In this document: piece by piece, positions 9,328-32,511 of the stretch | Numbering within the stretch: the stretch's first letter is position 1 | Layout of the letters: each line of letters starts with the position of its first letter | Origin: Lentisphaerota bacterium | GTDB lineage: Bacteria; Verrucomicrobiota; Kiritimatiellia; UBA8416; VGWI01 | NCBI GenBank assembly: GCA_016873655.1 | Contig: VGWI01000018.1 | Location: 1-33,427, forward strand | DNA length: 33,427 bases | Reading direction: 5' to 3' | The notes under the pieces: generated by a model | The model's input: the letters and a program-made list of their open reading frames with translations, nothing else | Told to the model about the DNA's origin: nothing | The model's database searches: none | Made by a program: the position numbers and the translations under genes

Positions 9328-10245
9328 ATGGAATCTGCAGCCCTGCCAGTTCCGGAACCTGCTCTGACGGCCATCTACACGGCCGTGTTCTGCATTGTCG
9401 CAACGGGAGTCGCCATTGATGCGATACTCCTTGTGCGCGCCGGAAGAGGCAGGTGCAAGCTGCGACGGGCCGGGCTTATCAGGCGCAGGGGCTCGCTGCT
9501 CGGACAGGACGGTCCACTGCTGCTCTCGATGCTCGCCGCCGTCTATGTTCTCCTGCTGTCCGTACTCTCCAGGAACATCGCGATTGATGAAGGTCAGCTT
9601 TTCAGGACGCTGGCCATGCAGACGCTCGGCATCCACGGCACTGCTGTTGGCGGCGCCGTCGTCCTGCTCCGCCTGCGAGCGACGTCGTGGAAGAAGGCCT
9701 TCGGGATCGGCCGACGTCAGACCGCCGCCGGAATCATGCACGGAATCGTCGCCTACCTGGCGGCCGTTCCGGCGGTGGCGGCCGGAACCGTCTTGTGGAA
9801 CATGCTGCTGGACAGGGCCGGGGTTTCACCCGGCCGGCAGGAAGTGGCTCAGGTCTTCGTCGAGACCGGCCATTCAGCCGGCGTGTACATCCTAATTGCC
9901 GCACTCGCGCTTGTCGCCGCGCCTTTCGCGGAAGAACTCGTCTTCCGCGGCGTGGCCCTCCCGCTTCTCGCGCGCATGACAACCCCCCTGCTGGCGATCG
10001 CCGCGGCATCCGTTGTCTTCGCGGCGCTGCACTTCCACATGGCATCGCTCGTGCCGTTGTTTATCATCGGATCGGCGCTCGGAACGGCCTACGTGTGCAG
10101 CGGCTCGCTCGCAGCACCCGTCACGGCCCACGCTCTGTTCAACGCGGGGAGTCTCGCCGCCTACTACGCCGTGCGCCTCTTCCCGGCACTCGAGTCAGGG
10201 GCGCTGTCTGTGCTGATGCCGGCAATGGGCATGCCCGGCCGCTAG
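9328..10245 (+). CDS. CPBP family intramembrane glutamic endopeptidase
   Basis: Multi-TM protein with motifs EELVFRGVALPLL and AALHF, and a terminal AHALFN motif. Confidence 0.9.
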   Translation: MESAALPVPEPALTAIYTAVFCIVATGVAIDAILLVRAGRGRCKLRRAGLIRRRGSLLGQDGPLLLSMLAAVYVLLLSVLSRNIAIDEGQLFRTLAMQTLGIHGTAVGGAVVLLRLRATSWKKAFGIGRRQTAAGIMHGIVAYLAAVPAVAAGTVLWNMLLDRAGVSPGRQEVAQVFVETGHSAGVYILIAALALVAAPFAEELVFRGVALPLLARMTTPLLAIAAASVVFAALHFHMASLVPLFIIGSALGTAYVCSGSLAAPVTAHALFNAGSLAAYYAVRLFPALESGALSVLMPAMGMPGR

Positions 10246-10419
10246 CGCACATTATTCATGTTCTTCGTCGCGAGAGGGCGCAGGGTGCGTCAGATCAACG
10301 GCTTGCCGAAGAGGGCCGGATGGCGGCGTGTTGACACACGTCAAAGTCGGTCATCAAGGTAAGTCGCTGAGATGGCGTATCATGTGCCCTCGCAGCAGAA
10401 GGTTCATGAATAATGCGCG
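10246..10419 (+). repeat. MITE-like repeat, copy 1 (174 bp), flanked by CTAG direct repeats
   Basis: Ends are CGCACATTATTCATG and, as reverse complement, CGCGCATTATTCATG (14/15). CTAG lies at 10242-10245 and 10420-10423. A 143-bp core is about 92% identical to the reverse complement of 26852-26995. Confidence 0.8.
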
Positions 10420-10429
10420 CTAGATTGAG

Positions 10430-11876
10430 CCTGTCGGGGGAAAAGCAAAAGTGGAAGGTGGGAGCGAGCAAAAGTGGAAAGAGGATAGAGGGAGGAAGAG
10501 CAGGATGCTGGGAGGTGGGAGGGGTTGATGGGCAGTGGGTTGTGAAAGGGAGAGGCGAGGAGGAGGCGCCCCCGAGGGGGCGAGCGCCCGTGGAGCGAGC
10601 AAAAGTGGAAAGCGGCCTATGATGGCCGCATGAAGAAACAAATTGGATCGCGGTTGGGCTTGCCGCACGTCCATGACGTGCTCAAGCAGGTTTGTGAGCA
10701 GACGATCTCGGTCGAGCAGGCGTGCGAATCCCTCGGGGTGGGCAAGAGCCGGCTCTACACGTTGCGCAGCGTATATCTGAAGGCGCGGGCGGCGGGAAAG
10801 GTCGAGGTCTGGTGTCCTGGCGTGTCCGGCGGTAACCATGCCCCGCCTTGGGGTGAGCGGGTTGTAACCTTCCTGCGATCGGCGATCCACAAGGGCTACA
10901 ACTATGCGTTCGCGGCCAGCGAGGTGGACCGTCTCTACGGTGTCGTGCTGGCCCGTTCTCAAGTCCGGCATTGGGCAATACGGGAGGGGATCTGCCCGGT
11001 CCCCAAGCCGCCGCGTCTTCCTGCCCATCTGAGGCGCTGGCAGCGGCAAGCTGTGGGTGAGCTCTGGCAGATGGATGCGACGCCGGACTATTGGTTCGGG
11101 GCTGAGGAGCCATCGTACCCCTTGCTGGATATGCTCGACGACTGCAGCCGTCTGCAAGTCGGCTGTGCGATCTACCGCCATGAGAACGTGCCTGCCTACC
11201 TGCACTTCTTCCACGACGCCTTCATGGAGTACGGCCTGCCTCTGGAGGTCTACGTCGATCAGGCCGGTATCTTCACGGGCAACAAAGAAGACAGTGTGAC
11301 CAGGATCGGGCAACGCCTGAAGTTCTACGATGTCTCGTTCGTGGTCGCCAATACCCCTGAGGCCAAGGGCAAGGTCGAGCGCATTCATCAGGTCTGGCAG
11401 GATCGCCTGCCGCCCTACTTCGCCCTGAACGGCGTGACGCCGTCTTCCGATTTGGAGGACGTCAACCGCCACATCGATGCCTTGCGTGAACACCGTAACC
11501 GGCGCGAGCGGCATCGAGAACTGGGAATGACACCGCAGACGGCCTGGGATGAAGCCACGGCACAGGGGCGCAACAAACTGCGCCCCGTGCCCAAGGAACC
11601 CTGGTGGAACTACGTCTGGTCCCTATGGCATCCCGTCACCATCGCCGTCGGCGGCCGCGTCTACTTCGCACAAGACTCTTTCCCTACTCAAGGCATCCCG
11701 GGCACCAAGGCCGTTCTCTATGAACACCTGGACGGAACCATCTCGATCCTCAGGGAACGCCCAGATAAGAAGAAGCTGCCTGTCGTTCTCTTCACCAACC
11801 GCCCTCGCTGAACACAGCTTCCTCGTTCCACTTTTGCTCGCTCCAAGAATTCCACTTTTGAAAACTCCCCGGCAGG
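10430..11876 (+). mobile_element. Insertion sequence with multi-copy end repeats and one DDE transposase (IS21/IS481/ISNCY-like)
   Basis: Imperfect terminal inverted repeats CCTGTCGGGG...CCCCGGCAGG. AGCAAAAGTGGAA-type motifs at 10444, 10467 and 10598 on the left; inverted copies at 11826 and 11850 on the right. Single transposase ORF between. Confidence 0.82.
10630..11811 (+). CDS. DDE integrase-core transposase (IS21/IS481/ISNCY-like)
   Basis: N-terminal HTH (ISVEQACESLGVGKSRLYTLR). Candidate catalytic residues in LWQMDATPDYW, VYVDQAGIF and AKGKVERIHQVWQDRLP. Confidence 0.9.
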   Translation: MKKQIGSRLGLPHVHDVLKQVCEQTISVEQACESLGVGKSRLYTLRSVYLKARAAGKVEVWCPGVSGGNHAPPWGERVVTFLRSAIHKGYNYAFAASEVDRLYGVVLARSQVRHWAIREGICPVPKPPRLPAHLRRWQRQAVGELWQMDATPDYWFGAEEPSYPLLDMLDDCSRLQVGCAIYRHENVPAYLHFFHDAFMEYGLPLEVYVDQAGIFTGNKEDSVTRIGQRLKFYDVSFVVANTPEAKGKVERIHQVWQDRLPPYFALNGVTPSSDLEDVNRHIDALREHRNRRERHRELGMTPQTAWDEATAQGRNKLRPVPKEPWWNYVWSLWHPVTIAVGGRVYFAQDSFPTQGIPGTKAVLYEHLDGTISILRERPDKKKLPVVLFTNRPR

Positions 11877-11991
11877 TGACAAGAAACCTCTTGCAGTGGG
11901 TCGTGCAAACGGCTATTTATTACGGACTTTGCAGGGAACATGGCTGCCGTTTCGCCGCACATTCAGACCTATCCGAGGTGCCTGTATAACC

Positions 11992-13962
11992 ATGGCCAAG
12001 AAGAAGACGCCGTCCGGGAAGAAGACTGTCAGCACAAGCAAGAGCGGGGAGCCGGTAGAGCGCAAACCGGTGAAGAAGCCTCCGGCTGCCCCTGCGAAGC
12101 CCGCAAGGAAGGGGACGATTGCTCCGACCGCCGCGAAGCCGAAGCCTGATTCGAAGAAGACCGTCCCTTCCTCGGCCAACTCGGAACCTGCTGCTGAAGA
12201 GACGAAAGTCCGGGAGATACGTTCCCATCACGCGCCGGTTCGTGAGCGAGATATCGAGGACGAAGCCTACGTCGAGCCGCAGGAGGATGAGTCTTCTGAA
12301 GCATCGCCCGAGGACGACGTTGAGCCCGGAGAAGCTGTTCCCACCCGCGAGGAGCGTTCTGAACGGCTCAAGGACCTGATCAAGCTTGCGGAGGATCAGG
12401 GGTACATCACCTACGACGATGTAAACGAGGTTCTTCCCGACAACGTTACGAATCCTGATGAAGTTGAATCATATCTCATGCTGCTTCGCAGTATGGATAT
12501 CGAGATAATCGAACCTTCCGCGGTGGAGAAGCACCGCAAGGACGCGGAGAAGCAGGAAAAGGCCACCCGAAAGGCCAGGCTCGATTTCTTCGACGACCCG
12601 ATCCGCATGTACCTGCACCAGATGGGGCAGGTGCCGCTCCTGACGAGAGACCAGGAGGTGGAAATCTGCAAGAGGATTGAGGACGCGGAGACCATGTGCA
12701 GAACACTCTTCAACTCCGTCGGGTTTGCGCCGTTGCTGTGCCTGGACCTCATAGACCGGCTGGAGCAGGGAAAAGAGCGTTTCGACCGCATCGTGACAGA
12801 CAAGTTCGTTGACAACCGCGACAAGTACATGGTGGCCCTGCCGAAGACGAAGGATTCGATACGCAAGACACAGACGAAGATGCGGCAGCTGTTCACAGTG
12901 GCTTGTGCGTCGAAGGGCACGAAGCAGTCCAAGGCAAAGGCAGAGAAGGCGCTCGAGGCGGAGAGGCGCCGGATGTCGTCCCTGCTGGACTCGCTCCATC
13001 TGAAGCAGAAGGTTATTGAGGCGTTGGCGGCATCGGCCGGCGAACTCTACAGGCGGTACGCCGATGTCAGCCAGGAATTCAGCCGTCTCGAATCGCAGCG
13101 CAGGAGCAAAGGCCGCGAAGCTGCCATGCGCGCACTCAAGGCGGAGATCAGGAAACTGACGGCGGACGTGTGTCTGCCTCGTGAGCAGTTCGAGGGTCAG
13201 TGTGAGCGGCTGAAGGAGGTAATGCGGAGCGGGCAGCAGGCGAGAACCGAGATGGTTGAAGCCAACCTGCGCCTTGTAATCAGTATAGTGAAGAAGTACA
13301 TGAACCGCGGGCTGTCGTTCCTGGACTTGATTCAGGAAGGCAATACAGGCTTGATGAAGGCGGTTGAGAAGTTCGAATACCGCCGCGGCTACAAGTTCAG
13401 CACCTACGCAACGTGGTGGATACGCCAGGCTGCGACCAGGGCCATAGCCGACCAGGCCAGGACGATCCGTATCCCGGTTCACATGATTGAAACGATCAAC
13501 AAGCTCCTGCGCGTTCAGAAGAAACTTGTACAGGAGCTGGGTCGCGAACCCACCCCGGAGGAAGCGGCGGCCGAGATGGAGATGCCGGTCGAGCGTGTGC
13601 GAGCCGTATACAAGATGGCGCAGCAGCCGATATCGCTGCAAAGCCCCATCGGCGACGGCGAGGACGCGCATTTCGGCGATTTCATCGAGGACAAGAGCGC
13701 CGAGAATCCATCGGAAATGACGGCCTTCAGCATGCTGAAGGAACGTTTGCAGGATGTTCTGCACACCCTTACGCCGCGCGAAAAGTCGGTTCTGGACTAC
13801 CGTTTTGGCCTTACCGACGGCTATTCGCGTACGCTGGAAGAGGTCGGCAAGCAGTTCAACGTCACGCGCGAACGCATCAGGCAGATCGAAGCCAAGGCGC
13901 TTCGGAAACTGAGGCACCCCACGCGCATGCGGAAGCTTGAAGGCTTCCTTGAAGTTAAGTAA
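11992..13962 (+). CDS. rpoD: RNA polymerase primary sigma factor (RpoD/SigA)
   Basis: Regions 1.1, 1.2, 2, 3 and 4: [92 protein letters not shown]. Start set at [11 protein letters not shown]. Confidence 0.97.
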
Positions 13963-13992
13963 CCCGGTTCACACCTTGAGGAGTTCTCATCA

Positions 13993-14415
13993 ATGATTGC
14001 TACGTTGTTTTACGGTATGACGTCTGTGCAGGTATCGGTTCTGGCGCTTCTTCTGGTTGTCCTGTCGTACTTCCTGGGGGTCCTGGCCGGCCGGAGATCG
14101 GCGGGCGGAGGCGGGGCCGGCCGTTCTTCAGCCGGAAGACCCGACATTGACCAGGACCTCGAGCTCTACGTCGGCAACCTGCCGTACGACACGAGCGACA
14201 GGGACCTGCAGGGCCTGTTCTCCAAGCACGGCAAAGTGACGAGCGCCCGTGTTATCCGCAACCGCGGCAGCGGCAAGTCCAAGGGCTACGGTTTTGTCGT
14301 GATGGGCTGCGCCAGGGACGTGGAAACGGCGGTAAGCGCTCTCGAAGGCTCCCAGTACAAGGGACGGAAGCTTGTCGTAAGCGAAGCCAAATCCCGGGCG
14401 CGCGACAACGAGTAA
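13993..14415 (+). CDS. RRM-domain RNA-binding protein with N-terminal transmembrane anchor
   Basis: TM segment VQVSVLALLLVVLSYFLGVLAG, Gly/Ser linker, then RRM with RNP2 (LYVGNLP) and RNP1 (KGYGFVVM). GAGGAG RBS upstream. Confidence 0.9.
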   Translation: MIATLFYGMTSVQVSVLALLLVVLSYFLGVLAGRRSAGGGGAGRSSAGRPDIDQDLELYVGNLPYDTSDRDLQGLFSKHGKVTSARVIRNRGSGKSKGYGFVVMGCARDVETAVSALEGSQYKGRKLVVSEAKSRARDNE

Positions 14416-14434
14416 CGCGCACGGAAAGACGCCG

Positions 14435-14980
14435 TCATGCGACCATTCCGGCCCTGACCCGTTCAGCCGCGGCGGGGCCGTCCGTGTGTTCGATCACCGC
14501 CAGGGCGAACTCCACTGCCGTTCCGGCGCCCTGGCTTGTCAGCACGTGCCCGTCAACCGCGACGCGTGTACCAGTCAGTTCCACGCCCTTCAGCATGCCT
14601 TCGACTGACGGGTGACAGGTGATGCGCCGGCCCGAGAGGATGCCGGCGGCCTGCAGAACCAGCGGAGCGGCGCAGATCGCGGCGACTGTCTTCCCTGCCC
14701 GGTCGAACTCCCGGACGATCCGGACGACACTTTCCGACTCCTCCATGGTTTTTGTTCCCGCCGCGCCACCGGGCAGGACCAGGACATCAAACTCATCGGG
14801 GGCGACTTCCTCCCACGGAACGTCCGGGAGAATGCGCACGCCGCGCGAACAGGTGACTGTCCGGCCGGTCAGTCCGGCCACGACAACCCGCCATCCGGCC
14901 CTGCGCAGCGTGTCTATGACGGCTACGGCCTCTAGTTCTTCCGTGCCGTCCGCGAGCGGAACGAGAACGCTTGTAGTCAT
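14435..14980 (-). CDS. DJ-1/PfpI family protein
   Basis: MTTSVLVPLADGTEELEAVAVIDTLRRAG; VLPGGAAGTKTMEES; nucleophile-elbow-like VAAICAAPLVL; ITCHPSVE; LTSQGAGTAVEFALAVIE. Confidence 0.92.
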   Translation of the reverse strand: MTTSVLVPLADGTEELEAVAVIDTLRRAGWRVVVAGLTGRTVTCSRGVRILPDVPWEEVAPDEFDVLVLPGGAAGTKTMEESESVVRIVREFDRAGKTVAAICAAPLVLQAAGILSGRRITCHPSVEGMLKGVELTGTRVAVDGHVLTSQGAGTAVEFALAVIEHTDGPAAAERVRAGMVA

Positions 14981-15132
14981 TGCTGCCTCTCCGTTCGGGA
15001 TTGTAGCCGTCGGGGCGCGGCCTTGCAGCCGAAAAAGAGGATACGGGCCTGACCCGACTTCCCCGGCGGAAGCCCGCTGAGACGGGGCGTTTGAGCTTGA
15101 AGGCCGAAGTCCCTGTCTATACCGTCCGGCGA

Positions 15133-16518
15133 ATGGACTACATAAGCACACGCGGCTTGAGTCCGGGCGCAGGTTTTTCCGACGCCGTGATGACTGGCAT
15201 GGGGCAGGACGGTGGATTGCTCCTGCCAGCGTCGATACCCGAGGTCGGCGACAGGCTGAATGCATGGCAGAACCTGTCCTATGTCGATCTCGCGTCCGAC
15301 TTGATGAGCCTCTACACGGACATTCCATCCGCCGATCTACGTCGGTTGGTGGATGAAAGCTGCGCAACTTTCCGCGATCCGGAAGTTACGCCCGTGAAGC
15401 GTGTGGGTGACGTCTGGATACTTGAGCTCTTTCACGGCCCCACGCTGGCTTTCAAGGATGTCGCGCTTCAGTTTCTAGGGCGTCTCTTCGAGCACCTGCT
15501 GAAGGAGCGCGGGGAGCTTCTGAACATAGTGGCGGCAACCAGCGGCGATACCGGAAGCGCGGCAATTCACGGTGTGCGCGGCAGGCCCGGCATGCGGATA
15601 TTCGTAATGCATCCGCAAGGAAGGGTAAGCGCTCTGCAGGAGCGCCAGATGACGAGCGTTCTGGACTCAAACGTGTTCAACGTGGCTGTTCGCGGCACTT
15701 TTGATGACTGCCAGCGGATACTCAAGACGCTGCTCGGCGACCCGGCGTACAGAAAGCAGCATTCGCTCGGCGCCGTGAACTCGATCAACTGGGCGCGTGT
15801 GCTGGCGCAGATGGTGTACTACTTCTATTCCGGTCTGAGGGTCATGAAACAGACAGGCGCAAAGACAGTCAGTTTTGCCGTGCCGACGGGTAATTTCGGC
15901 GACATTCTTTCCGGCTACTTCGCGGCGCGGATGGGTTTGCCGGTCTCCCGTCTCGTGCTGGCCACCAATGAGAACGACATACTTGACCGGTTCCTGACCA
16001 CCGGCATCTACTCCCTTGGCCAGGTGTCGGCCACGTTAAGCCCATCGATGGACATACAGGTAGCGAGCAACTTCGAACGGTATCTCTACTACCTGGTCCG
16101 TCGTGATTCCGGCCTGCTGCGTTCGCTCATGGATGCCTTTGAACGCAGGGGTTCAATGGAACTGCCCGGCGGATACGGCGAGCCGGGCGGCGGTATCTTC
16201 GTCTCGGGTTCTGCGCGGAGAGATGAAACACTGCGGACGATAAAGCGCTTCATGGAACAGCACGACTACCTGCTGGACCCGCACACCGCGGTCGGCGTTG
16301 CCGTTGGCGAGCGGCATGTCGGGGCAGAACCGATGATCTGCCTTGCGACGGCGCACCCGGCAAAGTTCCCTGATGCGATAAGGGAGGCGGTCGGCCGTGA
16401 TCTTGCTCATCACCCAATCCTCGACGGGCTTTCAGGTCTTCCGACCCGTTGCGACACCCTTCCGGCAGACGCGAACGCGGTGCGCGAATACGTTGCCGCG
16501 AGGACTGAATGTCCGTGA
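15133..16518 (+). CDS. thrC: Threonine synthase
   Basis: MDYISTRG N-terminus; LFHGPTLAFKDVALQFLG with PLP lysine; AATSGDTGSAAIHG; VPTGNFGDILSGYFAARMGLPV. Confidence 0.95.
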   Translation: MDYISTRGLSPGAGFSDAVMTGMGQDGGLLLPASIPEVGDRLNAWQNLSYVDLASDLMSLYTDIPSADLRRLVDESCATFRDPEVTPVKRVGDVWILELFHGPTLAFKDVALQFLGRLFEHLLKERGELLNIVAATSGDTGSAAIHGVRGRPGMRIFVMHPQGRVSALQERQMTSVLDSNVFNVAVRGTFDDCQRILKTLLGDPAYRKQHSLGAVNSINWARVLAQMVYYFYSGLRVMKQTGAKTVSFAVPTGNFGDILSGYFAARMGLPVSRLVLATNENDILDRFLTTGIYSLGQVSATLSPSMDIQVASNFERYLYYLVRRDSGLLRSLMDAFERRGSMELPGGYGEPGGGIFVSGSARRDETLRTIKRFMEQHDYLLDPHTAVGVAVGERHVGAEPMICLATAHPAKFPDAIREAVGRDLAHHPILDGLSGLPTRCDTLPADANAVREYVAARTECP

Positions 16519-16585
16519 AACACAAGGCTGATGCCGGCTTTTCTGTTTCTGCCGATCCGAGTGACAACAGTGAGGTCAACCCGGA

Positions 16586-18832
16586 ATGAAACACGACGCA
16601 GTCAAGTCCGGCATCGTGCGCCTTCTGCTTGAGAGCGGCAGGGCCATGAGCGCTTCCGAGCTTTCATCACGCATGGGACTGCGTGGAGCGGCCAAGAAGA
16701 AGCTACAGGGCTACCTCGTGGAACTGTCCCGTTCCGGCGCGGTAGTCCCCGCCGGGCGCAGTTCCTACTCGCTGGGCCAGGGAAATGGCGCGCTGACAGG
16801 AGAGCTTGCGATTGTACGTTCAGGCAAAGGCTACGTTGAGACGGGCCGCGGCGCCGCGGTACGGATCGAGGCGACGGACACGGGCACGGCCCTGCCGGGC
16901 GACCGTGTTCTCGTGCGGTTGGACTCTGGCGCCGGCAGCGGGCACGGGGAAACGCCCGCCGGCAAGATTGTCCGGGTCGTTGAGCGTGCCCGTCGCGACA
17001 TAGTGGGCACTCTGCGCCTCACGGACGGCGTTCTGCGGGTTGTTCCTATCGATCCGGCCTACAGACAGCCGTTTATTGTTCACAACGCTGATCCCGGAGA
17101 TGCGGGGAAGCGTGTCGTGATGCGTTTCACCAGTTGGGATGAGCGCGGGACGGATCCGCAGGGCGAGATCATCGAAGTCATGGGCGTGCCGGAGAAGGTT
17201 TCCGACGAGTCCGATGCGGCGGTACGGCATTTCGGCCTGTGCGCCGAGTTCTCCCCGGAGGCGCTGAGGGAGGCAGAACAAGCCTCGCGCCTGATGGATG
17301 ACTTCGGGACGCGAACCGACCTGAGGGGCAGGGGAATAGTGACGATTGATCCGGAAAGGGCGCGCGATTATGACGACGCGCTTTCGCTGGAGGTTCGCGA
17401 TGACGGAATGCGGGTGTTGGGGGTTCACATCGCCGACGTGTCGCACTTCGTGACTGAAGGCAGTGCGCTGGACATGGAAGCCCGTTTGAGAGGGAACAGC
17501 ACTTATCTTCCGGACAGGGTGCTTCCGATGCTTCCGGAGCAACTTTCCAACGGCGTGTGCAGTCTCAAGCCGGATTCCGACAGGCTGGCATTCTCGGCCT
17601 TCCTCGTTTTTGACGAGGATGGCGCCTTGAAAGAGAAATCGTTCGCGCGGACGGTCATCCGGTCAGCCTGCCGGCTGACATATACGCAGGCGATGGTAAT
17701 TCTTGACGGCGGCGCGGGGCCTGATGGCATGCCGCCGTTCGTTCCGTCGCTTCTTGAAGGAATCAACACGCTGTCAGGGCAGTTGAGACGAAGACGCTTC
17801 GCGGCCGGCGCGCTTAACCTCGATACGGCCGAGTGCGAGATACGGATAGGACCGGACGGGAGAATTGCCGATGTCATCTCCGTGCCCGACGACGATTCGC
17901 ACCATCTGGTTGAAGAATGCATGGTGGTGGCCAACGAGGCCGTGGCCGATGAGTTGCGGTCGGCGTCGGTTCGATACATAAGCAGGCGTCACGATCCGCC
18001 TTCTCCGCTCAAGATCGAGGCGCTTGAAGAGGAACTGTCTGAACTCGGGCTCAGGCCGGGCGACCTGCGGGACAGGCGAAGGATAGCCTCGCTTCTCAAG
18101 GAGACGCAGGATCACCCCCTGGCGCGTCACATACGCTTCGCGGTGTTGCGCAGCATGAGCAGGGCTGTCTATTCCGTGGAATCGGACGGACATTTCGGCC
18201 TGGCCAAGAAGTGTTACGCACATTTCACTTCCCCCATCAGGCGCTACCCGGACCTGACCCTGCACCGCGCGCTCGCGCGGCATCTTGCTTCGAGGGACGC
18301 GGGCAGCCGGCCTGTCGGCAGGGTGGTGAATGGGAAGTCAGGGGCAACCGACGATGACCCGCTGGCGGCCACCGCGAACCATTGCACGAAAACCGAGTAC
18401 ATGTCCGAGATGGCGGAGCGCATGGTGGACGAGATAATGAAACTGCGGTTCCTTGCTCAATCGGCGGCGTCCGACAGCCCGAGAAGTTTTGATGCGGTTG
18501 TTGTTCGAGCCACACCTTTCGGCGTCTTCGTGGAGCTTCCCGATCTTCAGATCCAGGGCCTGGTGCATGTTTCCGCCCTGTCCGGAGACCACGCGGGGTT
18601 TAACAGGAAAAACCGGTCACTGTCGGTCGGCGGGAAGGTGTACAGGCTTGGAACGAGCCTGAAGGTCCGTCCGGCGGCTGTAGATACGGAATCCAGACGT
18701 GTCGACTTCAGGCTGGAGGAGGGGCCGGCATGCACTCCGCCGCCGCGAAGGCCGGGAAAGAAGACCGGGGGCATGCGGGGTCCGAAGGGTGCGCGGAAGA
18801 GGATTCGCGGCCGCGGACAAGTCCGCGCTTGA
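16586..18832 (+). CDS. rnr: Ribonuclease R (RNase II/VacB family)
   Basis: RNB domain (GIVTIDPERARDYDDALSLE, HIADVSHFV, YAHFTSPIRRYPDLTLHRAL), C-terminal S1 domain and basic tail. Confidence 0.95.
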   Translation: MKHDAVKSGIVRLLLESGRAMSASELSSRMGLRGAAKKKLQGYLVELSRSGAVVPAGRSSYSLGQGNGALTGELAIVRSGKGYVETGRGAAVRIEATDTGTALPGDRVLVRLDSGAGSGHGETPAGKIVRVVERARRDIVGTLRLTDGVLRVVPIDPAYRQPFIVHNADPGDAGKRVVMRFTSWDERGTDPQGEIIEVMGVPEKVSDESDAAVRHFGLCAEFSPEALREAEQASRLMDDFGTRTDLRGRGIVTIDPERARDYDDALSLEVRDDGMRVLGVHIADVSHFVTEGSALDMEARLRGNSTYLPDRVLPMLPEQLSNGVCSLKPDSDRLAFSAFLVFDEDGALKEKSFARTVIRSACRLTYTQAMVILDGGAGPDGMPPFVPSLLEGINTLSGQLRRRRFAAGALNLDTAECEIRIGPDGRIADVISVPDDDSHHLVEECMVVANEAVADELRSASVRYISRRHDPPSPLKIEALEEELSELGLRPGDLRDRRRIASLLKETQDHPLARHIRFAVLRSMSRAVYSVESDGHFGLAKKCYAHFTSPIRRYPDLTLHRALARHLASRDAGSRPVGRVVNGKSGATDDDPLAATANHCTKTEYMSEMAERMVDEIMKLRFLAQSAASDSPRSFDAVVVRATPFGVFVELPDLQIQGLVHVSALSGDHAGFNRKNRSLSVGGKVYRLGTSLKVRPAAVDTESRRVDFRLEEGPACTPPPRRPGKKTGGMRGPKGARKRIRGRGQVRA

Positions 18833-18897
18833 TCCCGAAAGGGCGCGCGATCATAATCCCGCCCTCGTTTCTTGGACAGCCTTAGCGCGAGGAGACC

Positions 18898-19086
18898 ATG
18901 GGCACAGACAGACAGAAGCTCAAAGCGAAGCCGGGCAACCGCCCGAAGAAGTCGGAAAGAGAACGCAGGCGGCGTGTGAAGAACCAGGTGAAGCGGCTCG
19001 TCGGTCTTGGCTGCCAGGAAGCGGATTTGAAGCATATGAATCCCTCCCAGATGCGGGCCAAGCTGCGTCAGCTCGAGCGCAAGTAG
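18898..19086 (+). CDS. Small, highly basic hypothetical protein (62 aa)
   Basis: GCGAGGAG RBS just before the ATG; sits in a co-directional gap between rnr and pabBC; about one third Lys/Arg. Confidence 0.7.
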   Translation: MGTDRQKLKAKPGNRPKKSERERRRRVKNQVKRLVGLGCQEADLKHMNPSQMRAKLRQLERK

Positions 19087-19143
19087 CCCGTCTGCTACAC
19101 CCGGTGCTTCCATGGCGGCGCCTGCCGTGGCGGAGGGCGAGCC

Positions 19144-20919
19144 ATGTCCGCAACGGGGCAGACGAATCTTTCTTCCGCGAAACTCCCCGGCCGGGGAAGC
19201 GTACTCATTCGTCGTCTGGATTCCTGGCAACTGTTCAGTAATCCGCGGCGGATCCTGACGGCATCGTCGCCAGACGAAGTGATGCCGGTCATAGATGAGG
19301 CCGAGGCAGCCGCCTCGGAAGGGCTGTGGGCATGCGGGTTTGTCGCATACGAGGCGGCGCCGGCGTGTGATCGGGCTCTTGTGTGCCGCCCGTCTGCAGG
19401 AGTGCCGCTTGCATGGTTCGGCATCTACGATACGCCGGAAGACGCCGGAGATCTGTCGGAGCATGCCGCCGCCTGCATGGTCAGCAGTCCTGGTTTCGCC
19501 CCTGATCGTGACCGCTACACGGCCTCGGTCAACAGGATACTTGACTACATAAGGGCCGGCGACACTTACCAGGTCAACTACACGATCAGGCTCCGCGCCG
19601 GGTTTCGAGGAGATCCCCTGGCTCTATTTGCCGCAATGTACCGTGGTCAGCCGACCCGCTACGCGACGTTCATCAATACGGGCACGCACGCGATATGTTC
19701 GGCCTCGCCCGAACTGTTCTTCGAACGTGATGGCGGGGTACTGCGGTGCAAGCCGATGAAGGGAACGGCAGCCAGGGGGATGCGGACCGTGGATGACCTG
19801 GCAGCCTGCCATGCACTTGGCGTCTCGGACAAGGACCGCGCCGAGAACGTCATGATCGTTGACATGGTGAGGAACGACCTGGGACGGGTTGCTGAGCCGG
19901 GGTCTGTCCGTGTGGTGAGTCTGTTCGATGTGGAGAAGCACCCGACGGTGTTCCAGATGACATCGACCGTGGAGGCTCTATCCGGGGCTGGACTGCAGGG
20001 CGTATTCAAAGCCCTGTTCCCGTGCGCCTCGGTGACTGGAGCGCCCAAGGTCCGCACCATGCAGATCATCGACGAGTTGGAAACAGCACCGCGTGGTGTC
20101 TATTGCGGGGCGATTGGATATGCGCATCGTGACGAAGTCCGTTTCAGCGTGGCAATACGCACCGCGGTGGTGGATCTTGCGGCCGGGACGGTCGAGTACG
20201 GGACCGGCGGCGGAATAACGGCCGGATCCGCCCCGGCATCCGAGTACGAAGAGTGTCTTGCCAAGGCGCGGGTGTTTTCCTCGCGCCCGCCGCAATTCGA
20301 TCTGCTTGAGACCATGCGGTGGGATGCCGAAGGGTACTACCTTCTGGATGGCCACATCGCCAGGATAAGGGATTCGGCTGAGTTCTTCGGGTTCCGTTTT
20401 GACGAAAGAGCCGCAAGGGAACTTCTTGGGCGGGAGAGTGCCGGCTTCGGCCGCGCAGGTATGCGTGTGCGAATGACTCTGTCTCAGTCCGGCGTTCTGC
20501 GGGTATCGTCATCCCCGCTGGAGCAGGATGCAGTCCGGTTTCGCATAGCCCTTGCGGCGGAACCGGTTGACGCTTCCGACCGCTTTCTCTACCATAAAAC
20601 GACCTTTCGGACCTTGTACGAGAAAGCCAGGAATGCGCGCCGGTCGGCTGACGACGTCATTCTGTACAACGCTGCCGGCGAGGTGACTGAAAGCACCATG
20701 GCCAACGTGGTTGCCGAGCGTTCCGGGCGGTTTGTGACGCCGCCGGTCAGTTCGGGATTGCTGGCCGGCGTCTTCCGGGAGCACCTGCTTTCGTCCGGGC
20801 GGATCGAGGAAGGCTTGATCAGGGTTGAGGATCTCAGGGGGTTCGACAGGATCTGGCTTGTGAATTCGGTGAGGGGCTGGATCGAGACCGAGTGGGCTGA
20901 CGGTTCAGGGGGAGTCTGA
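19144..20919 (+). CDS. Aminodeoxychorismate synthase component I fused to an aminodeoxychorismate lyase-like class IV aminotransferase domain
   Basis: Chorismate-binding motifs (GDTYQVNYTIRLR, KPMKGTAARG, FPCASVTGAPKVRTMQII, YCGAIGY, GGGITAGSAP), then a PabC/IlvE-like domain (YHKTTFRTLYEKARN, NAAGEVTESTMANV). Confidence 0.92.
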   Translation: MSATGQTNLSSAKLPGRGSVLIRRLDSWQLFSNPRRILTASSPDEVMPVIDEAEAAASEGLWACGFVAYEAAPACDRALVCRPSAGVPLAWFGIYDTPEDAGDLSEHAAACMVSSPGFAPDRDRYTASVNRILDYIRAGDTYQVNYTIRLRAGFRGDPLALFAAMYRGQPTRYATFINTGTHAICSASPELFFERDGGVLRCKPMKGTAARGMRTVDDLAACHALGVSDKDRAENVMIVDMVRNDLGRVAEPGSVRVVSLFDVEKHPTVFQMTSTVEALSGAGLQGVFKALFPCASVTGAPKVRTMQIIDELETAPRGVYCGAIGYAHRDEVRFSVAIRTAVVDLAAGTVEYGTGGGITAGSAPASEYEECLAKARVFSSRPPQFDLLETMRWDAEGYYLLDGHIARIRDSAEFFGFRFDERAARELLGRESAGFGRAGMRVRMTLSQSGVLRVSSSPLEQDAVRFRIALAAEPVDASDRFLYHKTTFRTLYEKARNARRSADDVILYNAAGEVTESTMANVVAERSGRFVTPPVSSGLLAGVFREHLLSSGRIEEGLIRVEDLRGFDRIWLVNSVRGWIETEWADGSGGV

Positions 20920-20926
20920 CCAGGGG

Positions 20927-21715
20927 ATGCGCGGACTTGCATATTCGGTGTGGCTGAGGCGCGAACTTCTTCTAACGCTTGTCCTGCGCAACCTGAAGAT
21001 CCGGTACAAGAGTTCTGTTCTCGGCTTCTTCTGGTCCTTGCTTACGCCGTTGTGTTTCATACTCATCTACGGGTTTTTCGCCGGGATTCTGAAGTTCAAC
21101 GACGGCCGGCCGAGATACTTCGAGTTCCTGGTTGTCGGCATAGTCTGCTGGCAGTTCTTCCTGTCGTGCATGAACGATTCGCTCCATGCCGTAACGGGCA
21201 ACGTTAACCTGATCAAAAAGACTTCGTTTCCGAGGATTGTCCTGCCTCTTTCCACCGTGCTTGCGAACATGGTTAACTTTCTGCTGACCTCGGCGGTGCT
21301 GCTGGCCTATCTTCTCGTCTCGGGCGTTGTCCCGGTCAACTTCCTGTGGCTCATTCCGGCGCTCGCGGTTCAGGCGGTGCTTTGCCTTGGCATCTCTATG
21401 CTGGTCTGTGCCGGAAACGTGTTCTTCCGCGATACGGAGCATTTTGTCGGGATCCTGTCGCTGGCATGGTTCTTCGTGACGCCCGTTTTCTACCCTCTGG
21501 AGCTCCAGATGGAGCGGCTGCCGGACGGACTGGAGTGGGCCGCGTTTCTGAATCCGATGACGGGCATAGTGTGTCTCTACAGGCGCGGGTGGATGGGGCA
21601 CCCGTTGCCGCCGGGCGCCGGCCTGTTGGTGTCCGCGGCGGCGGCATGCGCGCTGCTTGCGGCCGGGCTTGCAGTGTTTCAGTCAACGCAGTCGCGTTTT
21701 GCGGATGAGCTGTAG
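20927..21715 (+). CDS. ABC-2 type polysaccharide export permease (Wzm-like)
   Basis: Multi-TM protein; LVLRNLKIRYKSSVLGFFWSLLTPL; directly followed by a Wzt-like ATPase. Confidence 0.92.
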   Translation: MRGLAYSVWLRRELLLTLVLRNLKIRYKSSVLGFFWSLLTPLCFILIYGFFAGILKFNDGRPRYFEFLVVGIVCWQFFLSCMNDSLHAVTGNVNLIKKTSFPRIVLPLSTVLANMVNFLLTSAVLLAYLLVSGVVPVNFLWLIPALAVQAVLCLGISMLVCAGNVFFRDTEHFVGILSLAWFFVTPVFYPLELQMERLPDGLEWAAFLNPMTGIVCLYRRGWMGHPLPPGAGLLVSAAAACALLAAGLAVFQSTQSRFADEL

Positions 21716-21718
21716 AAG

Positions 21719-22912
21719 ATGAACGAACCCGTCATAACCGTCCGGAACCTGCGCAAGGAGTACAGGCTCAGGGCCGCGCAGCGTACGCTCAAGTCCAGCG
21801 TTCTCGGCATGGTCCGCGGCGGCGCGGCGCGCGGTCGCAGGTTCGTCGCGCTCGACGACGTTACCTTCGATGTCTTTCCTGGCGAGACACTGGGCATCAT
21901 AGGGGCGAACGGCGCGGGGAAGAGCACGCTTCTATCCCTGCTGACCGGCACAGTGAAGCCGACGTCGGGCTCGCTGAGTGTCAAAGGCGCGCTTTCCTCG
22001 CTGCTTGAGCTTGGCGCGGGTTTCCATCCGGACCTGACCGGCCGGGAGAATGTCTTCCTTTACGGCGCAATAATGGGAATCGGCAGACGGCAGATGCGAG
22101 AGAGGTTCGACTCGATCGTTGAGTTTGCCGGGCTTGAGCAGTTCATAGACCAGCCGGTGAAGCACTATTCTTCGGGGATGTACGTTCGTCTGGGGTTCGC
22201 TGTTGCGGTCGAGGTAAACCCGGACATTCTTCTTGTTGACGAGGTGCTTGCCGTCGGCGATGCCGATTTCCAGCGGAAGTGCATCAGACGCATGGGCGAG
22301 TTCCGAGATTCGGGCAAGACGATGCTAATCATTTCGCACGACCTTCCGACCATCCAGTCGATCAGCACACGGATACTCTTCCTGGATAAGGGCGGGATAC
22401 TTGGCATCGGCGACCCTCAGCACATGGTTGAGGAATACGAGTCTCTCAACCGGTTGCGCGCCACCCGTGACGTAAGGCGCGAGTGGGGGACTGGGGAGGC
22501 TCGCATTGCCGGCGTGCGATTTCTCGACAGCGGCGGCGCACAGGTGGAAAGGGTCGCGTGGGGTTCGCCTGTAACCGCAGAGGTCTCGTTCTCTGCCATG
22601 AAGAAGATAGACAACCCGGTTTTCGGTTTTGCTCTTTCCGATTCAGCCGGCCGGTTGATCTACGGCAACAACACCCAGATAGAGGGATTCCGTATCCCGT
22701 TCATCGAGGGCGAGGGGCGGATCAGGCTGGTGTTGGACGGGGTTCCGATGTCATCCGGGCTGTACCTGTGGTCGTTCTCCATACACTCATCCGACCACAA
22801 GGTGAACTACCACCGTGCGGACAACTGCTTCCCGCTCGAAGTGGAGTCTGAGAAACAGTTTGAGGGGCTGTGTCACGTTCCGTGCCACTGGGAGGGGCTG
22901 GAGAATGGCTGA
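21719..22912 (+). CDS. ABC transporter ATP-binding protein with Wzt-type C-terminal domain
   Basis: Walker A GANGAGKST, signature YSSGMYVRLGFAVA, Walker B DILLVDEVLAVGD, and a C-terminal carbohydrate-binding-like domain. Confidence 0.93.
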   Translation: MNEPVITVRNLRKEYRLRAAQRTLKSSVLGMVRGGAARGRRFVALDDVTFDVFPGETLGIIGANGAGKSTLLSLLTGTVKPTSGSLSVKGALSSLLELGAGFHPDLTGRENVFLYGAIMGIGRRQMRERFDSIVEFAGLEQFIDQPVKHYSSGMYVRLGFAVAVEVNPDILLVDEVLAVGDADFQRKCIRRMGEFRDSGKTMLIISHDLPTIQSISTRILFLDKGGILGIGDPQHMVEEYESLNRLRATRDVRREWGTGEARIAGVRFLDSGGAQVERVAWGSPVTAEVSFSAMKKIDNPVFGFALSDSAGRLIYGNNTQIEGFRIPFIEGEGRIRLVLDGVPMSSGLYLWSFSIHSSDHKVNYHRADNCFPLEVESEKQFEGLCHVPCHWEGLENG

Positions 22913-23774
22913 TCCCGGATGGGGCCTGGTTCCGGAAAAGGAATGGCGCCGGCTGATTGACAACGCGTTGGCGGAGGATCTGAACGAGGCCGGAGACGTC
23001 ACCTCAATTGCCACGGTTCCAGCCGATGCGAGGTGCACGGCCGTGATAGTTGCCCGGGAACCGTGTGTCACCGCCGGCATTCCACTCGCCGTTGAGGTGT
23101 TCCTGAAATGCGAGCCGTCGCTGAATTTCTCCGGGGCCGTGCGGGATGGCGAGGCCGTCAGGGCAGGCGCCGTTCTGGCCAGGATTGCCGGTTCTGCGCG
23201 CGGTGTGCTGGCGGCGGAAAGAACCGCATTGAACCTGCTGCAGCGTCTTACGGGAGTTGCCACCCTGACGCGCCGGTACGCCGATGCGGTGGCGGGACTG
23301 CCGACGCTGATCCTCGATACGAGGAAGACTACGCCGGGATTGCGCGCCGTCGAGAAGTACGCCGTACGCTGCGGGGGCGGCGCGAATCATCGCATCGGGC
23401 TGTATGACAGGGTTCTCATAAAGGACAACCACCGCGCCCTGCTTGGCAGGGAAGGTGAATCTCTCGGGGCAGCGGTCAGGCGGGCGCATGCGTGCTATCC
23501 GTCGCTCGAGATCGAGATAGAGGTGGAATCGCTTGATGAACTCAAGTCCGCTCTCGAGGGGAGGCCGGACTGGGTGCTTCTCGACAACATGCCGTTGCCG
23601 CTGATGCGCGAGTGCGTTGGTCTGTGCCGCGGCAGGTGCCGCACCGAAGCGTCCGGCGGGATATCGCTTGAAACCGTCCGTGCTGTGGCGGAGACGGGGG
23701 TTGACGCCATATCCGTCGGGCGTCTTACCCATTCCGCTGTGGCGGCCGATCTTTCGCTGGAGATCGAAGCGTGA
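22905..23774 (+). CDS. nadC: Nicotinate-nucleotide pyrophosphorylase (carboxylating)
   Basis: EDLNEAGDVTS; ERTALNLLQRLTGVATLTRRY; LDTRKTTPGLRAVEKYAVRCGGGANHR; IKDNH; EASGGISLETV. Confidence 0.95.
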   Translation: MADPGWGLVPEKEWRRLIDNALAEDLNEAGDVTSIATVPADARCTAVIVAREPCVTAGIPLAVEVFLKCEPSLNFSGAVRDGEAVRAGAVLARIAGSARGVLAAERTALNLLQRLTGVATLTRRYADAVAGLPTLILDTRKTTPGLRAVEKYAVRCGGGANHRIGLYDRVLIKDNHRALLGREGESLGAAVRRAHACYPSLEIEIEVESLDELKSALEGRPDWVLLDNMPLPLMRECVGLCRGRCRTEASGGISLETVRAVAETGVDAISVGRLTHSAVAADLSLEIEA

Positions 23775-24517
23775 GCCGCTGCCTGCTTGTTGACGTCGGA
23801 AACACCAATACCGGCATGGCCCTTTACGTCAACGGCCGGATGGCGAGGCAGACGTGTATTGCCACGGAACCAAGGAAGGTTTCCGCGGCCGTGTTGAGGA
23901 AACTGGCCGGAAGAACCATGGCCGACGGGGGGATAGTCAGTTCCGTTGTTCCCGGCATGGCTTCCCGGTGGGTTTCACTTCTGGCCGGTCTGTCCGCGGG
24001 ACGGCCGATGGTCCTGGACGCAAGCCTGGAACTCAACGTGAAGCTGGACTATCCGCGGCCCGGGACTCTCGGGCCTGATCGCATCGCGGATGCATGTGGA
24101 GCGTACCTTCTCGCCCGCGGGCCCGTCGTGGTCGTTGACGTCGGGACCGCGGCCACGGTGGATGCCGTGACCGTTGACGGGCGGTTTGTGGGCGGTGCGA
24201 TAGCGCCCGGACCCGCGATGATGACAAGGGCGCTGGCAGAGGGCACTGCACTGCTGCCGAATGTGAAGTGGGGCGGGCCGTGCGGCGCCGTGGGACGCAG
24301 CACGGTGAGCGCGATCAGGACGGGTGTGAGAATCGGCTATCGCGGCATGATAGACGCTCTGATCGAATCGGCGCGGTCGGTTGCCGGCCGGGGCGCGGCC
24401 GTGGTGGCAACGGGCGGGTGGGCGGCGCGTGTGTTCGGCGCGAACCCGGCCGGGGTCGAGATACGTCCGTGGCTGACATTTGACGGGATGGTCCACATAT
24501 GGGAATTGAATCGCTGA
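23771..24517 (+). CDS. coaX: Type III pantothenate kinase
   Basis: VDVGNTNTGMAL; GPDRIADACGAYLL; VVVDVGTAATVDAV; GGAIAPGPAMM; ATGGWA. Confidence 0.93.
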   Translation: MSRCLLVDVGNTNTGMALYVNGRMARQTCIATEPRKVSAAVLRKLAGRTMADGGIVSSVVPGMASRWVSLLAGLSAGRPMVLDASLELNVKLDYPRPGTLGPDRIADACGAYLLARGPVVVVDVGTAATVDAVTVDGRFVGGAIAPGPAMMTRALAEGTALLPNVKWGGPCGAVGRSTVSAIRTGVRIGYRGMIDALIESARSVAGRGAAVVATGGWAARVFGANPAGVEIRPWLTFDGMVHIWELNR

Positions 24518-24550
24518 CGGCCCGGCGGCCGCGCGAACGGGAGGTGCTCC

Positions 24551-25630
24551 TTGGGTAATGTCTACGCAATTGTCCTTGCCGGCGGCCGCGGTGTGCGCTT
24601 CTGGCCGCTCAGCACGCGCGAGCGTCCGAAGCAGGTGCTGGATATCTTTGGCGGAACCCCGCTCATCCGCATGGCGGTCGAGTATCTGGAGGGTATAGTC
24701 ACTCCCGACCGCACATTCGTAATTACCAGCGAGGAGCTTGCCGGGCCCCTGCGCGAGACGCTGCCGGGCGTGCCGCCCGAGCAGATCGTCGGTGAGCCTG
24801 TCGGACGCGACACGGCGGCCGCCGTTGCCGTTGGCATGTCGCTTGTCGCCGCGCGTGACCCGGAAGGCGTGGCGGTGGTGGTCACGGCAGACCACATCAT
24901 CGGCGATCTTCCTGTCTTCAGGACAACCATGCGGGACGCCGCCTCAATCGCTTCCGGCTCGGATGTGCTTGTCGTGATCGGCATGCGCCCGTCCGCCCCG
25001 TCCACCGGTTACGGCTACATCGAGGCAGCGGATGCCGTGGAGGGCGGGGGTGGAACGGGGTTTCGCAAGGTGACTCGCTTTGTCGAAAAGCCGGACCTCG
25101 ATACGGCCAGGCGATACGTCGAGTCCGGCAGGCATTTCTGGAACTCGGGCATGTTCGTGTGGAGCGTTGCCGCTTTCCGGTCGGCCCTGGGCAGGTACGC
25201 CCCGGAGTTGAGGGAGCTGATGGACTTGATTTCGGCAGCGGGCCTCGCGGGCGTCGGCGAAGTCATGCGGCGCGCATATCCCGGTTTGCAGAGGATCTCC
25301 GTGGACTACGCGATAATGGAAAAGGCGCGCAACATCGTGATGGCTGTCGGCGAGTTCGCGTGGGATGACGCGGGCACATGGTCTTGCGTCGAGCGCCACT
25401 TCTGCCGTGACGCGGCCGGCAATACCGCCCTTGGCCAGGCAGAGCTGCTTGATTCGACCGGTTGCGTTGTGGTTTCGGGAGAAAGGCTGACCGCAGTCAT
25501 CGGGCTTGAAGACGTCGTTGTGGTCCAGGCTCCGGGGGCGACGCTTGTATGCCGGAAGGACCGCGTGCAGGACGTGAAAAAGCTGGTTACGCGCATGGAA
25601 GAGAACGGCGGTTACGATGGGCTCATCTGA
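24551..25630 (+). CDS. manC: Mannose-1-phosphate guanylyltransferase
   Basis: VLAGGRGVRFWPLSTRERPKQ; GRDTAAAVAVG; ADHIIGD; GYGYIE; FVEKPD; WNSGMFVW; DYAIMEKA; WDDAGTW. TTG start at 24551. Confidence 0.93.
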   Translation: MGNVYAIVLAGGRGVRFWPLSTRERPKQVLDIFGGTPLIRMAVEYLEGIVTPDRTFVITSEELAGPLRETLPGVPPEQIVGEPVGRDTAAAVAVGMSLVAARDPEGVAVVVTADHIIGDLPVFRTTMRDAASIASGSDVLVVIGMRPSAPSTGYGYIEAADAVEGGGGTGFRKVTRFVEKPDLDTARRYVESGRHFWNSGMFVWSVAAFRSALGRYAPELRELMDLISAAGLAGVGEVMRRAYPGLQRISVDYAIMEKARNIVMAVGEFAWDDAGTWSCVERHFCRDAAGNTALGQAELLDSTGCVVVSGERLTAVIGLEDVVVVQAPGATLVCRKDRVQDVKKLVTRMEENGGYDGLI

Positions 25631-26087
25631 AGAGCCGGCGGTTCCATCGTTCGGCAAGCTGCTGGGCATTGACTACGGCCGCAGGCGTATCGGCGTCGCG
25701 GCGAGCGACGAGACCCAATCCATCGCCATGCCGGTCAGGCGCCTCGACGTAAGGAGCGACGACGAGGCCGTGCGTGAGACTGCCCGTGTCGCGGCGGACT
25801 CGGATGCAGTGGGGATAGTCGTGGGCATGCCCGTCAACATGAACGGGACGCACGGCGAAATGGCCGTTGCCGCGGACGGATTTGCGGCGCGGCTCAGGAG
25901 AGTTTCCTGTCTTCCTGTCGTCACATGGGACGAGCGCCTTACCAGCGCCGCGGCTGAGCGCTGCCTTCTTGAAGGCGACATTTCCCGCGGAAGAAGGAAA
26001 GAACTGCGCGACAAACTGGCTGCGCAGATACTGCTCCAGGGATATCTCGATTCGCGCGTGGGCGGATCGGGTTCCGGCGGAGGTTGA
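25617..26087 (+). CDS. ruvX: Holliday junction resolvase RuvX/YqgF family
   Basis: LGIDYGRRRIGVAASDE; VVGMPVNMNGTHGEMA; WDERLTSAAAE; internal AAQILLQGYLD. Confidence 0.93.
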   Translation: MGSSEEPAVPSFGKLLGIDYGRRRIGVAASDETQSIAMPVRRLDVRSDDEAVRETARVAADSDAVGIVVGMPVNMNGTHGEMAVAADGFAARLRRVSCLPVVTWDERLTSAAAERCLLEGDISRGRRKELRDKLAAQILLQGYLDSRVGGSGSGGG

Positions 26088-26860
26088 GCCCGGTGCGCCT
26101 TCGCATGGAAATAGCCTACGACGGCACTGACTTCTACGGCTGGCAGGCCCAGCGTGATCATCGCACCGTGCAAGAGGAGTTGGAGGAGGCGCTTGCGACC
26201 GTTACAGGCGAGACTCCGCGTGTCTTCGGCAGCGGACGCACCGACCAGGGCGTCCATGCCTTGAGGCAGATCGCGCATTTCGACGTGCAGAAGAAGGTTG
26301 ATCCGCGTCGTCTCATGAGGTCGCTGAACGCGGTGCTTTCCCCTGACGTGCGGATAACACGGACAGCCGTTGCCCGTTCCTCGTTCCATGCGCAGTTTGA
26401 CGCCGTTGCCAAGGAATACCGCTACTTCATCTGGAACGGCGAGGTGCCGAGTCCCTTCGATCGGCGCTACCGTGCGCACGTGCGCCGGCCGCTCGATGCG
26501 CCTGCCATGGCGGTGGCAGCCCGAATGCTGGAAGGAGAACATGATTTCGCCGCCTTCACGGCCAACCCGAACCGGAACGTGGAAACCACCGTAAGGTCCA
26601 TTATGAGCCTCACGGTGCACAGCCGCGGGCCGCTCATAGAAATAAGGGCGCTGGGCCGTGGGTTCCTCTACAAGATGGTCAGGAGCCTGGCGGGTTTTCT
26701 CATAAGAGTGGGGGAGGGCGCCGAGAAACCGGCCTCGGCCGGCGGGATACTGGAATCCCGGACCAGAACGGCGAGGGTTCCGACAGCGCCTCCAAACGGC
26801 TTGTTCCTGTGGCGGGTCTACTACCGGGAACCGGCGCCGCGCCGCCGCCAGCGCACATGA
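26084..26860 (+). CDS. truA: tRNA pseudouridine synthase A
   Basis: EIAYDGTDFYGWQAQ; GSGRTDQGVHALRQIAHFD with catalytic Asp; EYRYFIWN; GRGFLYKMVRSLAGFLI. Stop codon lies inside repeat copy 2. Confidence 0.95.
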   Translation: MSPVRLRMEIAYDGTDFYGWQAQRDHRTVQEELEEALATVTGETPRVFGSGRTDQGVHALRQIAHFDVQKKVDPRRLMRSLNAVLSPDVRITRTAVARSSFHAQFDAVAKEYRYFIWNGEVPSPFDRRYRAHVRRPLDAPAMAVAARMLEGEHDFAAFTANPNRNVETTVRSIMSLTVHSRGPLIEIRALGRGFLYKMVRSLAGFLIRVGEGAEKPASAGGILESRTRTARVPTAPPNGLFLWRVYYREPAPRRRQRT

Positions 26861-26994
26861 TACGTCACCTCATCGACTTACCTTGATCGCCGAATTTGAC
26901 GTGTGTCAACACGCCGCAATCAGGCCCTCTTCGGCAAGCCGTTGATCTGACGCACCCTGCGCCATCTCACGACGAAGAGCATGAATAATGAGCG
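26852..26994 (-). repeat. MITE-like repeat, copy 2 (143 bp), inverted relative to copy 1, flanked by CCAG direct repeats
   Basis: Same 143-bp core as copy 1, ungapped, with about 12 mismatches. CCAG at 26848-26851 and 26995-26998. Ends CGCACATGATACG and CGCTCATTATTCATG (minus strand). Confidence 0.8.
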
Positions 26995-27061
26995 CCAGGC
27001 CCACGCCCATTCGGTCAGGAATGGCTGGCGTGCCGGCCGCGCTTTTGTCATACTGCGCCGG

Positions 27062-32133: not shown

Positions 32134-32511
32134 AAGCCGGATTCTGTATCCGAATGAACGGACCCGGTCATTTGTCTGATGCGATCTACCCGGAACTGTG
32201 CTCCAGACGTCTGAGACGCCGGGAGACCGGAGCGGGCAGCTCCCAGTCCCCTATTTGATCTTGCTCCGGACGGGGCTTGCCTTGCGGCCTTCATCGCTGT
32301 CGGCCCGGTGGTCTCTTACACCACCTTTTCACCCTTACCCCTGTGCTCCCTGGAGAGCACGGGGGCGGTCTGTTTTCTGTGGCGCTATCCGTCTCTTCCG
32401 CTTCACCGGAAAAGCCCCCGCTTGCGCGGGGCATCCTGCCCTTCGGAGTCCGGACTTTCCTCCACCGACGCATTGAGCGCAGGCAGCGACCGGTCATCCC
32501 GTCAACCGACA
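32114..32511 (-). ncRNA. rnpB: RNase P RNA, bacterial class A
   Basis: On the minus strand: GGAGGAAAGTCCGGACTCCG, CCACAGAAAACAGACCGCC, GGTAAGGGTGAAAAGGTGGTGTAAGAGACCACC and ACAGAATCCGGCTTATG. Ends set by a perfect 15-bp P1 pairing, TGTCGGTTGACGGGA with TCCCGTCAACCGACA. Confidence 0.96.

Follow-up and report, generated by a model that had tools for sequence, protein, structure and literature searches.

Two copies of a repeat in the window

The window analysed here, the 33,427-nt contig VGWI01000018.1 of assembly GCA_016873655.1, carries two copies of a short element without genes, which by its ends, flanks and copy number is a miniature inverted-repeat transposable element (MITE). The insertion site of copy 1 is the stop codon of a CPBP-like gene; copy 2 separates truA from rpe and provides the TGA stop of truA (the open reading frame ends at 26860). 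A repeat search of the window found a stretch of 155 nt, 90% alike, that 10242-10396 and 26844-26998 share in inverted orientation, and CATTATTCATG was found three times against 0.15 expected in shuffles, at 10250-10260 on the plus strand and at 10405-10415 and 26980-26990 on the minus strand. The repeat pair that a first-pass annotation of this DNA had reported is therefore real, as are the sequence that it placed at three of the four termini and the flanks that it gave, CTAG/CTAG for copy 1 and CCAG/CCAG for copy 2. The features of the two copies are as follows.

10242-10245: left target duplication CTAG of copy 1, including the TAG stop of the CPBP-like gene (9328-10245)
10246-10419, plus strand: copy 1 of the element, 174 bp; the plus strand is the best-folding strand
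10246-10260, plus strand: left terminal inverted repeat of copy 1, CGCACATTATTCATG
10262-10402, plus strand: conserved hairpin core of copy 1 (covariance model R1, 161.5 bits), with the basal motifs TTCGTCGCGAGAG in the 5′ arm and CTCGCAGCAGAA in the 3′ arm
10405-10419, minus strand: right terminal inverted repeat of copy 1, CGCGCATTATTCATG
10420-10423: right target duplication CTAG of copy 1
26848-26851: target duplication CCAG of copy 2, low-coordinate side
26852-26994, minus strand: copy 2 of the element, 143 bp, stopping at an internal pseudo-end
26852-26864, plus strand: pseudo-end of copy 2, CGCACATGATACG, which replaces the right terminal repeat
26980-26994, minus strand: terminal inverted repeat of copy 2, CGCTCATTATTCATG
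26995-26998: target duplication CCAG of copy 2, high-coordinate side

Copies and target duplications

A search of the whole source genome, a draft of 3.08 Mb in 243 contigs belonging to the class Kiritimatiellia, found ten full-length copies and the shorter copy 2, all at separate sites, and the family is thus not the two-copy family that had been supposed. The full-length copies measure 174 bp (one measures 175 bp), and the others are 94-98% identical to copy 1. With 11 copies of 143-175 bp the element is short, multicopy and non-coding, and CGCRCATTATTCATG stands at both ends of the full copies with few mismatches; by the tested features it is a MITE. Single ends with one mismatch in the source genome (C2:65982, C20:5154, and C115:93) were little above chance.

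The left end of copy 2 is genuine, but its right end is aberrant: the sequence stops at CGTATCATGTGCG, about 31 bp short of where the other copies truly end, and CTGG (CCAG on the plus strand) can be read on both of its sides. The fourth terminus, earlier called degenerate, is actually an internal position of the full-length copies. Copy 2 is interpreted as a transposition product that used this internal pseudo-end as one of its ends, a behaviour known from IS1380 elements, which have one flexible end.

Identical 4-bp duplications flank eight of the ten full copies (CTAG in six, CTGG in one, CAAG in one), and the remaining two have flanks that are one base apart (CTAG/CCAG and CTAG/CTAA). The non-CTAG duplications, CTGG/CTGG and CAAG/CAAG, are the most telling because they cannot belong to the element itself. 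In all genomes examined, 49 of 77 elements have identical duplications and 23 have a one-base difference, and the 49 include CTAG 30 times, TTAA seven times, CTAA six times, and TTAG four times. The 4-bp duplication that had been proposed stands, and YTAR describes its target better than CYAG does. Among the 23 one-base mismatches, 17 are transitions and 15 fall at position 1 or 4, a pattern compatible with a donor-derived 4-nt flank that pairs to the target as in piggyBac, and also with mutation.

A probable link to the IS1380 family

In G018, the genome of a relative, ends consisting of CTAG followed by CGCGCATTATTCAYG adjoin the N- and C-terminal parts of a transposase of the insertion sequence (IS) family IS1380. 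The C-terminal 244 aa of this enzyme match NF033539 (E 3.6e-50), and its N-terminal part adjoins the ends CTAG followed by CGCGCATTATTCACG and CTAG followed by CGCGGATTATTCATG. A 15-bp end is common to the element and the G018 IS1380, whose other ends differ by one base. Furthermore, a class-wide search of Kiritimatiellia recovered complete IS1380 elements on single contigs. When these were scanned for inverted ends between equal 4-bp flanks, with a score bonus for YTAR, seven of them, 1.56-2.02 kb long, proved to have YTAR duplications and the type of end seen in the element.

L315: CTAG followed by CCCGGATTATTCACGA, 1,703 bp
L307: CTAG followed by CCCGGATATTGCATGA, 1,558 bp
L309: CTAA followed by CCTGAATAATTCATCA, 1,620 bp
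L308: TTAA, 1,563 bp
L317: TTAG, 1,679 bp
L304 and L313: both CTAG, 1,600 and 2,017 bp

Transposases of four of the seven were examined and all match Pfam DDE_Tnp_1_4 (E 1e-109 to 1e-165). The source genome itself holds an IS1380 remnant (G000:C133:4600-4755, L053), a fragment only, which is split by an IS3-like element and is 86% identical over 73 aa to the G018 transposase, with lower identity to the other enzymes compared. In plasmids, a tblastn search returned IS1380 relatives of less than 60% identity, and among the Nitrospirota IS1380 elements L129-L133 are without the repeat, L135 alone having a matching single end.

Given how closely anatomy and target agree, an IS1380-type transposase very probably moves the element. 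The first-pass suggestion of a non-autonomous element that makes a 4-bp target duplication and depends on an outside transposase is thus upheld by the 11 sites, the eight duplications, and the IS1380 elements of the class, whose duplications and terminal repeats agree with those of the element; further copies and flanking duplications, whose absence would have told against it, are both present.

A conserved hairpin on one strand

Beyond its ends, the entire body of the element forms one long hairpin. For copy 1 the minimum folding energy is −95.5 kcal/mol on the plus strand (z −10.3 relative to shuffles) and −63.8 on the opposite one, and the same strand folds better in 14 of 14 elements, in 39 of 39, and in 10 of 10 from Nitrospirota and a gammaproteobacterium, these being overlapping sets of about 50 elements. 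In an alignment of 14 sequences, both sides have changed at 28 of 71 pairs against 7.4 in shuffles, none of 500 being as high, and sliding the partner by 1-3 columns leaves 3-7 such pairs. In 21 core matches both-side changes occur at 40 of 52 pairs (223 cells against 70.6 +/- 6.5), figures that lean towards structure because this alignment was fitted to the model and two of its rows are the two strands of one sequence. Moreover, several features are fixed though pairing does not require them, namely a G-U pair near the tip (20 of 21), the U-G pair of the basal motif (19 of 21), and the basal motifs TTCGTMGCGAGA and YCGNAGYAGAA. Rfam gave nothing at the gathering threshold in the window copies, the best match being E 7.6 for copy 1. 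Taken together, the fold, the fixed features and the one-strand stability suggest selection on a single folded strand.

It could be argued that what is conserved in the body is no more than a set of double-stranded subterminal binding sites for the transposase, the hairpin being a by-product of an inverted-duplication origin and of arm-to-arm correction by quasipalindrome repair. Such repair can imitate compensatory change, and the basal motifs TTCGTMGCGAG and TTCTRCTRCGAG do lie beside the terminal repeats at either end, and Nitrospirota elements share them. However, left/right differences and internal loops are fixed and persist from family to family, although arm-to-arm correction would wipe them out; nor would such correction favour either strand, yet every element folded is more stable on one of the two. 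Binding sites are further opposed by the apical region, which likewise covaries (helices 3 and 4, 21 core matches), and by the ends of the complete IS1380 elements examined, which are without the basal motifs. This explanation is therefore considered unlikely, and the lack of basal motifs in the IS ends also makes the body unlike a simple internal deletion of those ISs.

The folded strand might alternatively work as single-stranded DNA in replication or transposition, in the manner of IS200/IS605, of repetitive extragenic palindromes (REPs) and their REP-associated tyrosine transposases (RAYTs), or of integron attC sites. The strand specificity of the hairpin and its conserved bulges or mismatches would suit this role, and GTAG/CGTC-like tetramers in the basal motif resemble REP tags (PMC3733652). 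In addition, DNA parameters favour the same strand in all Kiritimatiellia and most Nitrospirota elements, so that the preferred strand does not separate RNA from single-stranded DNA. On the other hand, 4-bp duplications and terminal inverted repeats point to a DDE enzyme and not to HUH enzymes or integrases, and with respect to co-directional genes, which give a rough indication of the direction of replication, the folded strand is not biased in orientation. A function as single-stranded DNA is accordingly held to be improbable.

Variable ends, conserved body

In the named-genome collection, the end CTAG followed by CGCNCATTATTCATG was found in Kiritimatiellota and Nitrospirota assemblies, in one gammaproteobacterium and in one Bacteroidota assembly; a pattern scan of viral contigs gave no match. 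Nitrospirota copies measure 157-210 bp with flanks that are mostly CTAG, and homologues in four other Kiritimatiellia genomes are 68-77% identical and keep the fold. A covariance model of the core, built without the terminal repeats, recovered matches in 13 of 346 Kiritimatiellia genomes, which belong to about ten families and in one of which (L169) the core has 30% G+C. The terminal repeat varies by genome (CGCGCATTATTCATGA; CCCGCATTTCTCACCA; CCTGATCTATTCATCA; CCCGGAYATCTCACAC; ACCTGGAATAAGCGAG; CCAGATTTATTCATAA), while the basal motifs are constant. One degenerate end pattern matches 85 ends in genome G043, 27 in G021 and 11 in G037, and the reversed pattern matches none.

Internally deleted forms of 50-100 bp also have YTAR flanks. 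In genome G006, 26-bp palindromes that consist of two fused terminal repeats with YTAR flanks occur at several sites, four being perfect and one having a mismatch (C19:8585-8618, C65:8417-8450, C3:32176-32209, C34:16228-16261, and C52:51; loci L072-L096 and L108), and these fusions are possibly the smallest mobile form. A minimal 50-bp hairpin, in which both terminal repeats surround TTTTTCGTAGTAGGAAAA, is present at several sites in G043 (C13:18230-18287 and C48:129510-129567; L245 and L252). The same genome has many truncated copies (L263-L302), in which the 3′ arm is retained far more often than the 5′ arm and the breaks are often close to the tip of the hairpin; in about five copies a YTAR directly adjoins the break (L282 with TTAA/TTAA, L283 and L286 with CTAG/CTAG, L270, and L294). 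Reverse transcription as the source of these 5′-truncated copies was set aside, because the family is accounted for by a DDE enzyme together with terminal repeats and duplications of a fixed 4 bp, and it is also weakened by the small number of truncated copies with YTAR at the broken end.

Position relative to host genes

The first-pass annotation had offered as its alternative an extragenic repeat domesticated by the host, here taken as a 3′-end or terminator element. The position of the copies is what speaks for it: in the source genome a stop codon lies in 10 of 17 YTAR element ends against 2 of 42 background YTAR sites, and in G043 in 11 of 64 against 27 of 341, all counted with a home-made heuristic gene caller and with some sites counted twice, and flanking gene pairs are convergent in 26 cases and divergent in nine. 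Such a bias would be expected anyway if insertions elsewhere are harmful, given that YTAR contains TAA and TAG. The favoured strand shows no orientation bias against co-directional flanking genes (14 versus 15), so that position lends no support to a role in host transcripts, and for the same reason a simple 3′-untranslated-region role was not adopted. Domestication is also opposed by the patchy presence in the 13 genomes, by clean insertion sites and by the lack of a run of T; it found no direct support and is regarded as very unlikely.

Two neighbours in the window deserve mention. At 10630-11811 on the plus strand, starting about 200 bp after copy 1, lies an IS481/ISNCY-like transposase gene, whose product matches NF033594 at E 4.9e-44, under the curated cut-off; GAGCAAAAGTGGAAAG is repeated upstream of it and may be its terminal repeat. 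At 32116-32505 on the minus strand lies a bacterial class A RNase P RNA (218.5 bits).

A mobile element with a fold probably under selection

We put a probability of roughly 0.85 on the reading that the element is a MITE moved in trans by an IS1380-family DDE transposase at YTAR, with a body that is a conserved strand-specific hairpin under selection. The transposase, supplied in trans, would insert the gene-less element at YTAR tetranucleotides (mostly CTAG, also TTAA) and thereby produce the 4-bp duplication. Selection would act on the folded single strand, most likely as RNA transcribed through the element and less likely as single-stranded DNA, and would concern the element's own persistence or spread and not one host gene.

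Several observations weigh against this reading, among them the agreement of DNA parameters with the favoured strand and the absence of orientation bias, both described above. No empty site was seen among comparison genomes, the nearest of which are of the same order only. The two G018 IS ends sit on different contigs, the source draft genome has an IS1380 fragment alone and no intact copy, and no convincing IS1380 was found in most hairpin-carrying genomes; a missing IS1380 is weak counter-evidence because draft genomes lose multicopy ISs. Lastly, the core counts 134 G-U against 5 A-C cells, an excess that is partly circular because pairs were called by RNA rules, and the independent evidence for the fold is the two-strand energies and the covariation.

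A further proposal, which we advance tentatively and at less than even odds, is that the MITE carries a structured RNA as cargo needed for its own spread or persistence, that its interchangeable ends have been re-matched to the resident IS1380, and that it is shared by Kiritimatiellota and Nitrospirota.

Bacterial hairpin MITEs have mostly been regarded as debris with an incidental stem-loop. For this element covariation backs the fold, the folding strand is defined, and the internal loops stay fixed across many families even as the terminal repeats change, and the role of an RNA or single-stranded fold in the MITE way of life becomes directly testable. The new points are a hairpin conserved on one strand, a family of this size and distribution, and its tie to IS1380 through complete autonomous partner elements with the same target and ends; neither a MITE fold of such kind nor an IS1380-MITE tie is described in the open-access literature searched.

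Comparison with known systems

The complete IS1380 members found here match the terminal repeats and 4-bp YTAR duplications of the element, which differs from them in having no transposase gene and a body unrelated to the IS ends examined. An aberrant second end, like that of copy 2, is also used by the family member ISEcp1, which makes 5-bp duplications. Within the IS1380 family TMos show such an end, and IS1247 makes 5-bp duplications (PMC3281130). In published trees IS1380 is an outgroup to piggyBac (PMC10813416), which excises and re-inserts with a 4-nt flank (PMC7351741). The 4-bp TTAA-type target of piggyBac is similar, but piggyBac is eukaryotic and the target of the element is YTAR with CTAG preferred.

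Like the element, the GTAG- and CGTC-tagged REPs are palindromic and extragenic, lie near gene ends and have a possible RNA role (PMC3733652). REPs, however, measure 20-40 bp, bear a terminal tag tetranucleotide and have no terminal repeats of this type, the GTAG REPs being linked to HUH transposases (PMC3733652), whereas the element, at 174 bp and with terminal repeats and 4-bp duplications, does not fit the REP/RAYT system. The nearest described in kind are Correia/NEMIS, ERIC, and RUP, which are shorter than 200 bp, have terminal repeats and a target duplication, and give transcripts predicted to form long stem-loops; RUP, moreover, is linked to an IS through its ends, as is the element (PMC2229807). 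The termini of these families contain TA, and the IS to which RUP is tied is IS630 (PMC2229807), in contrast to the YTAR target and IS1380 tie of the element, whose fold has covariation support and persists from family to family and between phyla.

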